DNA of 64,000 nt from Ethanoligenens harbinense YUAN-3. Lineage in GTDB: Bacteria > Bacillota > Clostridia > Oscillospirales > Ethanoligenentaceae. Positions 41,579 through 63,465 of this stretch are shown piece by piece. The stretch lies in the NCBI RefSeq assembly GCF_000178115.2, contig NC_014828.1:705501-769500 (forward strand). The letters are read 5' to 3'. Below the pieces are notes generated by a model. The model ran no database searches and was not told where the DNA came from. It saw only the letters and a program-made list of their open reading frames with translations. Position 1 is the first letter of the stretch. Each line of letters opens with the position of its first letter. The position numbers were made by a program, and so were the translations under genes.

Positions 41579-41830
41579 ATGCAGAAGGCAATGAATTTAC
41601 AGGACGTATTTCTCAACCAGGTGCGCAAGGACAAGATTCCCGTCACCATTTTTCTCACCAACGGGTATCAGTTCAAAGGCGTGGTCAAAGGCTTTGATAA
41701 TTTCACCGTGATCCTCGAAAGCGACGGCAAGCAGGATCTGGTCTATAAGCATGCCATCTCCACCGTGATTCCGGTGCGCCCGGTCTCCATTCTGGACAGT
41801 GCCACCGCGCCCGCTAAAGAGCACGTCTGA
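41579..41830 (+). CDS. hfq: RNA chaperone Hfq
   Basis: 83 residues. Sm1 motif [21 protein letters not shown] and Sm2 motif [12 protein letters not shown] are intact, with a short C-terminal tail usual in Firmicutes. It forms a hexameric ring binding U- and A-rich RNA. GGAGGAAAC precedes the ATG. Its presence makes sRNA regulation plausible (see the sRNA candidate at 62690-62806). Confidence 0.97.
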
Positions 41831-60645: not shown

Positions 60646-61434
60646 ATGGCGAGGTTTTGCTCACTTTACAGCGGCAGCAGCGGCAACTGCATCTATGTGG
60701 AAGACGGGGATGCCGGCGTCCTGATCGACGCGGGCGTCAGCATGCGGCGCATCTGCGCGGGCCTGCTGGCCATTGGGTCGGACATTTCGCGCGTGCGCGC
60801 CGTATTCCTTACGCACGAACACAGTGACCACATCAAGGCTCTGCCGATGCTGTTCAAAAAATATGAGATCCCGGTTTTTGCCACGCCGGGTACCATTCGG
60901 GGCGCCTGCGCCGCGGTGGAGGCGCTGAATCCGGATCGCTTTGAGCAGATGGAAACCGGTTGCTGTGCCGAAGTGGGCGGAATGGCCGTTTCTTCATTTG
61001 CCACCTCGCACGACAGCTTGGAGAGCGTAGGCTATCGCATTTCATTTGCGGGCGGAGAGGATGCCGCCGTGGCGACGGATCTGGGCTTTGTGGATGAGCC
61101 TGTGATGCGCGGTGTGCAGGGCTGCAAAATGGTTATGCTTGAGTCCAACCACGACATTGACATGCTGCGCAACGGCCGGTATCCGTATTATCTGAAGCGC
61201 CGCATCCTGTCGGCCATGGGGCATCTTTCCAACCGGGACTGCGCCGCCGTGTTACCGGCGCTGGCGGATGCGGGCATGCGGCATGTGGTATTGGCGCATC
61301 TGAGCGCGGACAATAACCTGCCCGCGTTGGCGCTGGAAACCGCGACAGAGGCTCTTTGCGCCGCGGGGATGCAGGATATGGTGAGTGTGGAGGCCGCTCC
61401 GCGGAGCGGCCCGGGCCGTGTTTATACATTGTGA
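60646..61434 (+). CDS. Metallo-beta-lactamase fold hydrolase (WalJ/YycJ-like)
   Basis: 262 residues. SLYSGSSGNCIYVED at the start and LTHEHSDHIKAL, the metal HxHxDH motif, define the YycJ/WalJ group. Further metal ligands are likely in SFATSHDSLES and LAHLSADNN. The family is 5'-3' nuclease-like and linked to mismatch repair. rlmH follows directly, as in the Bacillus yyc region. Confidence 0.9.
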   Translation: MARFCSLYSGSSGNCIYVEDGDAGVLIDAGVSMRRICAGLLAIGSDISRVRAVFLTHEHSDHIKALPMLFKKYEIPVFATPGTIRGACAAVEALNPDRFEQMETGCCAEVGGMAVSSFATSHDSLESVGYRISFAGGEDAAVATDLGFVDEPVMRGVQGCKMVMLESNHDIDMLRNGRYPYYLKRRILSAMGHLSNRDCAAVLPALADAGMRHVVLAHLSADNNLPALALETATEALCAAGMQDMVSVEAAPRSGPGRVYTL

Positions 61435-61441
61435 GGCGGAC

Positions 61442-61924
61442 ATGCTTTCGATTGAATTGTGGTGTGTCGGTGGGCTGAAAGAGTCCTATTGGAAAGCGGC
61501 CTGCACCGAATACAGCAAGCGGCTGGGCGCGTGGGCGAATGTGACCGTGCATGAGCTGCGTGAGCAGCCGCTGCCCAAGGATGTTTCTCCCTTGCAGATT
61601 GAGATGTCGCTGCGGGCGGAAGGAGTTCGGCTGTTGGCGGCGCTTCCCAAAGATGCATGTGTTACAGCGCTTTGCGTGGAGGGCCGGGAGATGGACTCGG
61701 GAGCGCTGGCGCAGACGTTGGACCGGCGGATGACCGGCGGTCAGTCCAGATTTTGTTATGTGATCGGCGGCTCCCACGGGCTTTCCGCGGAAGTGAAAGC
61801 TCGTGCCGATGAGAAGTTTTCCCTTTCTCGCATGACAATGCCGCATATGTTGGCACGCGTGTTTCTGCTGGAACAGCTCTACCGTGCCATCAGTATTCTG
61901 CATGGTGCAAACTATCATAAATAA
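61442..61924 (+). CDS. rlmH: 23S rRNA pseudouridine-1915 N3-methyltransferase RlmH
   Basis: 160 residues, the normal family length, from the ATG at 61442. SPOUT fold with the SAM knot at FCYVIGGSHGLSAEVKARAD and the end LEQLYRAISILHGANYHK. Only 7 nt after the walJ-like gene. Confidence 0.96.
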   Translation: MLSIELWCVGGLKESYWKAACTEYSKRLGAWANVTVHELREQPLPKDVSPLQIEMSLRAEGVRLLAALPKDACVTALCVEGREMDSGALAQTLDRRMTGGQSRFCYVIGGSHGLSAEVKARADEKFSLSRMTMPHMLARVFLLEQLYRAISILHGANYHK

Positions 61925-62000: not shown

Positions 62001-62507
62001 TCACGCCTGCGAACTGGCACTGGAAAGGGATGCATAAGCGGACTGGAACTGCGTGATCCAGTCCGGCGCGGGGGCAATGGGCGTGGAAAGCGGGTCAGCG
62101 GCATTGGCATGGATTTGCACATAGATACCTTCGGAAGAGAGGATATCGGTCAAATGGAATTGCGTATTCAACGATTCCAATGTCTGCGAATTCTGCGCGG
62201 CTACTTCCCGCAGCATGGAAAACAGATCCTGCGCTGATTTCTGCGCCAAAGGTTGCAGATAACTGGAACGATCCAGACGGCAGATGATGAGCGAAAGGGC
62301 GATGCGCCCGGGTGTGGAGGCATAGGTGCGCGCCATGGTATTCAGATCGGCGGTTGCCGGCAGGGTGCTGTCAATAGTCCCGCCGTGTAAGGAAGACGGG
62401 ATGGCTTCAGCCGTGGAGCTTTTAGACTGTCTCGGCTGTGTGCCGCAGGCGGACAATAACGCGAGCGCCGCTACGGCGACAGCCAGAAATAAGAGCCTGC
62501 GCAGCAC
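62001..62507 (-). CDS. Putative lipoprotein of unknown function
   Basis: 168 residues from a GTG at 62507 with AGGAGGAA upstream. The signal peptide ends in the lipobox LLSAC (Cys about 21), so it is likely lipid-anchored. The rest is predicted helical with no family I recognise (TLPATADLNTMARTYAS; LLSIIC-type core). LspA (49007) would process it. Confidence 0.75.
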   Translation of the reverse strand: MLRRLLFLAVAVAALALLSACGTQPRQSKSSTAEAIPSSLHGGTIDSTLPATADLNTMARTYASTPGRIALSLIICRLDRSSYLQPLAQKSAQDLFSMLREVAAQNSQTLESLNTQFHLTDILSSEGIYVQIHANAADPLSTPIAPAPDWITQFQSAYASLSSASSQA

Positions 62508-63054
62508 ACAAATTCCTCCTTTATGGTGAGGTTGGCAGTTGGAAAGCGGGGCTTTGGCCGCAATGCCGAAAAAAACCTTGAGTCTATGGTGGTTTCATCC
62601 AATCTGGAAGGGAAAGATACATTTTGAATTTTGTCATATATTTTTTACAAAATTTGAAAAAATATCGCCTGATGTTGTTTCAATTTGCAAAGAACAAAGG
62701 CCTGGGCGGGGGAGCCCAAGCCTTTGTCTTGTAAGCCTGAGGGGTAATGAGGAGGGTTAAGAGCATGTACATTTGAAATAAGTGCGGCTCCTATCTCAAA
62801 TGTACAAACTTATTATAACGAACAATACCACGGGGTTTGTTAACATAATATGAATTTTTTAGACGCGTGACTGTGCGCGGTTGGTGGAATATGGTCTGCC
62901 GCAAGGCGTTTGACGGCCGGAACATGGTGTATAAACACCGGAACCGGCGCGGATACTATGGGCGAAGGAGCGTTCAATGCGCCGTTGCATGTTAGTGTTC
63001 GCCGCGCGCCCGCATGGCGCATATCCTTTCCGCGGCGGAAAGAAGGAGGGGACG
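62508..63054. other. Intergenic region with a likely sRNA gene
   Basis: No protein gene. An AT-rich stretch (62610-62680) with an inverted repeat probably contains the lipoprotein promoter. 62690-62820 holds the minus-strand sRNA candidate. The region 62880-63050 leads into the CBS gene; an upstream open frame continues to 62977 without homology. Confidence 0.5.
62690..62806 (-). ncRNA. Candidate small regulatory RNA with CU-rich loops
   Basis: On the minus strand, a TATAAT box (complement of 62812-62817) is followed, at the expected start site, by an 11-bp hairpin (arms 62796-62806 and 62766-62776) with a GGAG-containing loop. Then comes about 40 nt of unpaired RNA with CCCUCCUC and CCCCUC, complementary to Shine-Dalgarno sequences. 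A terminator stem follows (62696-62707 with 62714-62725; one mismatch), ending in a U-rich tail. Length about 117 nt. It has the layout of SD-blocking sRNAs of Firmicutes and recalls csfG of endospore formers, which I could not verify. Confidence 0.65.
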
Positions 63055-63465
63055 ATGCAGGTAAGTGAGATCATGACTACGCGGATCGTCAGTGTGGAGC
63101 CGACCGCAACGGTGCGGGAAGCCGCCACGCTGATGAGCCGCAACAACATCGGCTCCGTGCCGGTGGTGGACGGTGGCGCCGTGCGCGGTATGCTGACCGA
63201 CCGGGATATCGTGCTGCGCTGTGTATCCGAAAACAAAGATGCGGACACCGTAAAGGTTTCGGATATCTGCACGCATGGCGCGGTGTCCGTGCGGCCGCAG
63301 GACCCGGTGAGCAATGCTATGCACCTGATGTCTGCGGAGCAGGTGCGGCGGCTGCCGGTGGTGGATAACGGCAAACTGGTGGGGATGCTGAGCTTTGCCG
63401 ACGTTGCCCGCGAAAAAACGGGCATGGAAGTTGCCCAATCTATCTCGGAAATTTCCATGCCGTGA
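63055..63465 (+). CDS. Two-CBS-domain protein
   Basis: 136 residues from the ATG at 63055 (AAGGAGGGG upstream). Two CBS motifs: MTTRIVSVEPTATVREAATLM...NIGSVPVVDGG and HGAVSVRPQDPVSNAMHLM...VRRLPVVDNG, with LTDRDIVLR. Such stand-alone pairs bind adenine nucleotides or related ligands and often act as stress or energy sensors. No partner gene is adjacent. Confidence 0.9.
   Translation: MQVSEIMTTRIVSVEPTATVREAATLMSRNNIGSVPVVDGGAVRGMLTDRDIVLRCVSENKDADTVKVSDICTHGAVSVRPQDPVSNAMHLMSAEQVRRLPVVDNGKLVGMLSFADVAREKTGMEVAQSISEISMP

Follow-up and report, generated by a model that had tools for sequence, protein, structure and literature searches.

The closest described counterparts of the locus analyzed here are the csRNAs of streptococci, in which two stem-loops flank an unpaired region complementary to the Shine-Dalgarno (SD) sequence and the AUG (PMC3091779), and which are under CiaR two-component control exerted through an N5 direct repeat before the -10 box, with several sRNA genes in each regulon (PMC3091779, PMC8186281). 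RoxS/RsaE, controlled by ResD/SrrA, likewise target SD sequences with C-rich regions that are single-stranded, and FsrA is another C-rich sRNA of Firmicutes (PMC4409812). CsfG, a sporulation-linked RNA of Bacillaceae encoded next to ylbH, is CU-rich in its loops and between its helices (PMC3574147). Among regulators, CssRS of Bacillus subtilis is an autoregulated two-component system that controls HtrA proteases (PMC6749698). These descriptions, and the comparisons made with them below, follow excerpts of the cited papers.

The window, a stretch of 64,000 nucleotides of the Ethanoligenens harbinense YUAN-3 genome, carries on its minus strand a gene that, on its anatomy and conservation, very probably encodes a genuine free-standing sRNA (Table 1). 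The initial annotation had described a TATAAT box, a 5' hairpin starting at the predicted +1, and an unpaired stretch that holds both CCCUCCUC and CCCCUC. We find all three, the box by direct reading and the other two by sequence and fold. Its terminator stem is present as a hairpin in the fold, but the U-tract that follows is imperfect (UUUGUUCUUUG) and the terminator is in this respect weaker than claimed. What had been overlooked is a direct repeat of the TTCAYA type in place of a -35 box. The missing -35 box and the imperfect U-tract explain why a promoter scan of the window gave no sigma-70 -10/-35 pair for the sRNA and why a simple terminator scan did not list its terminator. The predicted fold of the 115-nt RNA (-46.7 kcal/mol; z score, -6.9) consists of two long hairpins and leaves the C-rich stretch unpaired, and none of 200 shuffled sequences was equally stable. 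As had also been stated, hfq lies within the window (plus-strand segment 41474-41830, first Met at 41579; named by reading its sequence), and Hfq might conceivably play a role.

Table 1. Features of the predicted sRNA gene and of its neighbors in the window
Feature	Position	Strand	Basis or remark
Direct repeat, upstream half TTCATA (putative response-regulator site)	62849..62854	-	Sequence; TTCAYA kept in homologous promoters
Direct repeat, downstream half TTAACA	62838..62843	-	5 nt past first half, 20 nt before -10; [T/G]T[A/C]ACA kept
-10 box TATAAT (perfect)	62812..62817	-	Sequence; near invariant in 60 nonredundant homologues
Predicted sRNA, about 118 nt, +1 near 62805, end near 62688	62688..62805	-	Anatomy and conservation
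5' hairpin, 17 bp, apical GGAGCCGCAC	62767..62805	-	Fold; loop CCGCA in 53/60; compensating changes at stem pairs 3-5
CAU, candidate anti-start-codon triplet (anti-SD motif follows 8 nt later)	62765..62767	-	Sequence; overlaps foot of 5' hairpin in the window
Anti-SD motif 1, CCCUCCUC (DNA CCCTCCTC)	62749..62756	-	Sequence and fold
Anti-SD motif 2, CCCCUC (DNA CCCCTC)	62739..62744	-	Sequence and fold
Terminator hairpin (15-bp stem, UCCCCC in the loop), followed by weak U-tract	62693..62728	-	Fold
CBS-domain gene, divergent neighbor of sRNA	62977..63465	+	Pfam CBS
Lipoprotein-like gene downstream, outside the sRNA unit	62001..62507	-	No Pfam/NCBIfam match

In its predicted fold the RNA resembles the csRNAs, with a stem-loop, an unpaired anti-SD region, and a terminator stem-loop. 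However, the csRNA repeat is TTTAAG-N5-TTTAAG and lies about 10 nt from the -10 box, whereas here it is TTCATA-N5-TTAACA (consensus, TTCAYA/TTAACA) at a distance of mostly 19 to 20 nt, in another lineage. A CAU that might correspond to the anti-start triplet of the csRNAs occurs in 31 of 60 homologues, its distance from the anti-SD motif being constant in 26 of these; in the window it overlaps the foot of the 5' hairpin. Since repeat and lineage differ, the sRNA is not a member of the csRNAs; it is best read as a functional analogue of the CiaR-dependent csRNAs that would be unrelated to them by descent as far as tested (no Rfam match). With RoxS/RsaE it shares C-rich unpaired regions complementary to the SD sequence, but it has a single C-rich block between two hairpins. 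With CsfG it shares CU-rich stretches, whereas its promoter is of the vegetative TATAAT type with a repeat.

The initial annotation had likened the layout to RoxS/RsaE and csfG and had suggested an Rfam scan. The likeness holds for the design but not for membership, as none of 4227 Rfam families matched either strand of the window at the gathering score. RsaE is included in Rfam. The ylbH-element entry, which we take, partly on the basis of PMC3574147, to be CsfG, likewise had no match on either strand of the window. Seven further loci, five of which carry the sRNA, gave no match at the gathering score (L076, L089, L078, L083, L081, L068, and L060). The best subthreshold names for the sRNA stretch, ar14 (17.3 bits) and FsrA (RF02273; 14.6 bits there and 21.3 bits in the related locus L002, against a gathering score of 80), are at chance level. 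The family is absent from Rfam 15 and was previously unlisted, and a search of the open-licence PMC literature found no mention of it. The sRNA family, of a functional kind already known, is conserved and unlisted and very probably real.

At the DNA level, relatives were detected in the family's other three genomes (G001, G002, and G003; four of four together with the window's genome, G000), and these have in common the promoter repeat, the C-rich motifs, a hairpin at the 5' end, and the terminator. A covariance model built from these four genomes (R1), the specificity of which is low above about E = 1e-5, matched 52 of 394 genomes of the order at E ≤ 0.01. Thirty order loci were read, weaker matches being left out, and the complete anatomy was present in 25 (4 in f1, 20 in f23, and 1 in f26) and incomplete in L091, L094, L096, L097, and L098; by this model, the sRNA extends beyond its own family to two others of the order. 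Judging from organism names, f23 is presumably Acutalibacteraceae. Across the class, 10 of 391 genomes matched at E ≤ 1e-4, and the matches outside the order (L334 and L335) proved to be terminator-like stretches rather than sRNA copies. Scanning the genome contigs of about 85,000 named species with the exact pattern TACCCTCCTCAAN{1,8}CCCCTCAA, from which the promoter and the 5' hairpin had been left out, yielded 118 stretches; 76 of the 80 that were read are sRNA copies, and the other four (L151, L156, L202, and L208) are chance matches in unrelated phyla. Named carriers include Caproiciproducens, Faecalispora, Neglectibacter, Anaeromassilibacillus, Massiliimalia, and Clostridium sporosphaeroides, together with many Ruminococcus or Oscillospiraceae bins. 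A phage collection and viral contigs contained no copies.

For structural comparison, 85 sequences were pooled (75 of the 76 pattern loci and ten order loci; L192 was left out because its upstream part was too short) and reduced to 60 nonredundant homologues. The 5' hairpin is predicted in 56 and the 3' helix in all 60, while 47 have an unpaired anti-SD core. Part of the conservation of the anti-SD core reflects its use as the search pattern, but the promoter, the loop, and a flanking GUUCUA are kept although they lie outside that pattern. CCGCA precedes the anti-SD core in 53 homologues, and covariation was assessed in these, anchored on the CCGCA motif and not on the fold. Pairs 3, 4, and 5 of the 5' stem are kept in 48, 40, and 43 of the 53 with several pair types, a result matched by none of 1000 shuffles, which ignore relatedness among the sequences; pairs 1 and 2 are almost invariant, and pairs 6 and 7 show no excess over the shuffles. 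Conservation across the homologues makes the sRNA more than a chance assembly. The apical loop sequence of the 5' hairpin is changed in G001, and three loci (L163, L200, and L209) carry a short variant that lacks the usual GGAGCCGCACC hairpin and its loop.

The promoters of the 60 nonredundant copies mostly read TTCA[T/C]A-N5-[T/G]T[A/C]ACA followed by a near-invariant TATAAT; the window has TTCATA-N5-TTAACA-N20-TATAAT. The spacer between repeat and TATAAT is N20 in 28 copies, N19 in 27, N9 in 4, and N21 in 1; the repeat was placed by best score, which favors finding one, and the spacing is nonetheless the same in 55 of the 60. By eye, L075 and L077 are of the N20 form with GTAACA and L092 and L093 of the N9 form. 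Between the N20 and N9 forms the repeat is shifted by 11 bp, which is close to one turn of the helix. A TTGACA-like -35 box (5 of 6 bases at 16- to 18-nt spacing) was found in none of the 60 promoters. Judged from its sequence, this layout appears to be of an activator-dependent type. The repeat does not match the CutR motif TAWATAAA (PMC12802291), as far as the excerpt of that paper goes. Rex, WalR, and Spo0A sites were considered as alternatives on the basis of their consensus sequences.

Two response regulators of the window's genome, RR1 (G000:C1:2707931) and the WalR/MtrA-like RR2 (G000:C1:1161202), both assigned to the OmpR family by profile and 44% identical to each other, are candidates for the activator. 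In tests against mononucleotide shuffles, the N19/20 repeat layout was present in 9 of 11 RR2 promoters (p ≤ 0.03) and the N9 layout in 8 of 10 RR1 promoters (p ≤ 0.015), five of the ten RR1 promoters passing with N19/20 too. Other regulator promoters did not pass (0/4); of the pstS promoters, meant as negatives, 3 of 10 reached p < 0.05 with the N19/20 layout, and for one of the three the N9 layout passed as well. Locus L129 scored poorly with both offsets used in this test. The two regulators are alike, and their sites are not firmly separable. RR2, whose own promoter has the same layout as the sRNA promoter, is the best candidate. Relatives of RR2 occur in all 11 near-complete genomes searched and those of RR1 (at least 58% identity) in 9 of the 11; at E ≤ 1e-50, neither was found in the three incomplete family genomes. 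Given that RR2 is present in every near-complete genome searched, its co-occurrence with the sRNA proves little.

RR2, a kinase, and HtrA (trypsin-PDZ) form an operon in G091, G345, and G103, and it is this arrangement in relatives that suggests a link with stress of the envelope or of secretion. In the genome of the window itself, RR2 is followed by the kinase, and htrA was not read after them. The TTCACA half-site is similar to the CssR box, TTTTCACA, and the excerpt of the CssRS paper names no sRNA in its regulon (PMC6749698). TTCACA-N5-TTCACA-N9-TA with at most 1 mismatch occurs at 17 places in the four family genomes, versus none for the reversed pattern. The N20 pattern, with at most 1 mismatch, gave 39 matches in 12 genomes, versus 8 for the reversed pattern; since it was designed after the promoters had been seen, its value lies in how little else matches, and the 11 exact matches fall before the sRNA (5), the RR2 operon (3), a CU-rich sRNA (1), and elsewhere (2). 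The N9 form, with at most 2 mismatches, gave 60 matches in 10 genomes, versus 13 reversed; the minority that were assigned include sites upstream of htrA in G226, G309, and G386, of a ClpB-like gene in G091, and of an HlyD-like gene in G345.

TTHACA-type direct repeats are used by several OmpR-family proteins. The sRNA could be a real anti-SD sRNA with another activator, be it RR1, a PhoP-type or ResD-type regulator, or several of these, and the envelope-stress link would then be wrong. The TTCACA-type repeats in the RR1 promoters speak for this reading, as do the TTTACA-N5-TTTACA repeats that pstS genes carry here, and the C-rich sRNA RoxS is driven by ResD (PMC4409812). However, no RR1 relative of at least 58% identity was found in the near-complete genomes G198 and G351, both of which carry the sRNA, and the N19/20 layout is that of the RR2 promoters. 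The Pho boxes, which the sRNA repeat resembles at first sight, differ from it at the third base, and phosphate control is correspondingly improbable. We regard a different activator as unlikely, if the most serious of the alternatives. Pho boxes of the form TTTACA-N5-TTTACA were seen upstream of pstS-like genes at L099, L100, L104, L107, and L110.

We favor, as probable, a scheme in which RR2 activates the sRNA under envelope stress and the sRNA blocks ribosome-binding sites, our confidence in the RR2 and envelope-stress link being clearly lower than that in a free-standing sRNA. A membrane kinase would sense envelope trouble, and RR2, a regulator of the OmpR/PhoB type, would bind TTCATA-N5-TTAACA and activate the promoter that lacks a -35 box. 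The RNA of about 118 nt may then pair through CCCUCCUC and CCCCUC with the SD regions of target mRNAs, the CAU present in half of the homologues perhaps pairing with the start codon, and such pairing would lower translation of the targets. The complement of the conserved stretch, GAGGAGGGTAGAACATG, has the form of an SD sequence with a start codon at the usual distance. The target prediction suggested earlier did not succeed in this form: TTGAGGAGGGTW followed by TG within 1 to 12 nt, a 12-nt complementarity, was found in eight genomes only in the sRNA genes themselves, as their complement, and in no mRNA, so that real targets must pair less perfectly.

More tentatively, and at somewhat less than even odds in our estimate, anaerobic, largely gut-associated Clostridia may have evolved an envelope-stress network of their own, independently of streptococci, in which response regulators linked to HtrA drive, through one direct repeat, two kinds of anti-SD sRNA, the two-hairpin sRNA of several families and a multicopy CU-rich group whose repeat lies one helical turn nearer the -10 box. 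For an order of gut and fermentative anaerobes, the result is a conserved sRNA family whose promoter signature is clear and for which a regulator can be proposed and a testable target rule stated. Should the link to the regulator prove true, envelope-stress systems coupled to HtrA and to anti-SD sRNAs would have at least two origins in Firmicutes, a general hint as to why envelope-stress systems recruit sRNAs.

The neighborhood bears on whether the RNA, instead of acting in trans, belongs to the downstream gene as its 5' leader or as an attenuator. It lies on the same strand as the lipoprotein gene of the window, and a same-strand M23 peptidase gene follows it directly in 40 of the 67 named loci whose sequence extends far enough. 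However, the downstream gene varies: in L002, L003, and L004, where neighbors were named by reading and not by family search, it is a different and convergent gene, and by a crude ORF call, the downstream ORF is on the opposite strand in 22 of 73 named loci. The terminator closes ahead of the gene, and the part that is kept is the C-rich stretch and not a two-fold switch. A leader is thus very unlikely. The possibility, raised in the initial annotation, that a signal might arise as part of a long lipoprotein leader is unlikely, because the lipoprotein gene, for which no relative was found in the genome contigs, is missing downstream in these three family relatives. Upstream, the CBS-domain gene adjoins the sRNA in L002, and a queG-like gene stands between them in L003 and L004. 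Although its neighbors change, the set of promoter, 5' hairpin, C-rich stretch, and terminator stays intact, which argues for a free-standing unit, so that the anti-SD sRNA first proposed is supported by comparative evidence, its transcript being predicted. That the function of the conserved DNA lies on its other strand, as a small ORF or a site with a ribosome site and ATG, is hardly credible: the complement GAGGAGGGTAGAACATG is present in 7 of 8 genomes, but in the window its frame is only 3 codons long, in two others read it stops at differing places, and promoter, hairpin covariation, and terminator fit the sRNA strand. Against the favored reading, the crude ORF call places the sRNA core inside an ORF of at least 100 aa in 16 of 76 loci.

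Several further features were noticed. In the window's genome, five CU-rich RNA candidates of about 85 nt (G000:C1; L026 at 135149, L028 at 2277033, L029 at 2358023, L045 at 1747801, and L031 at 2357865), two of them in tandem, contain AUGCUUUUU and CAUUCUUUUUCUCCUCU and a C/G terminator and stand behind TTCACA-type repeats; similar candidates occur in G001 (L060 and L065, in tandem) and G003 (L068). TTCACA-type repeats also precede HlyD-type and YibE/F-type membrane protein genes at L027 and L033 of the window's genome. One M23 peptidase gene downstream of the sRNA, at L146:4834-5568, encodes a membrane protein. Within the window, positions 60646-61924 hold a gene of the metallo-beta-lactamase fold and, after it, one for an rlmH-type SPOUT methyltransferase, and this gene order is that of the end of the wal operon in Bacilli.
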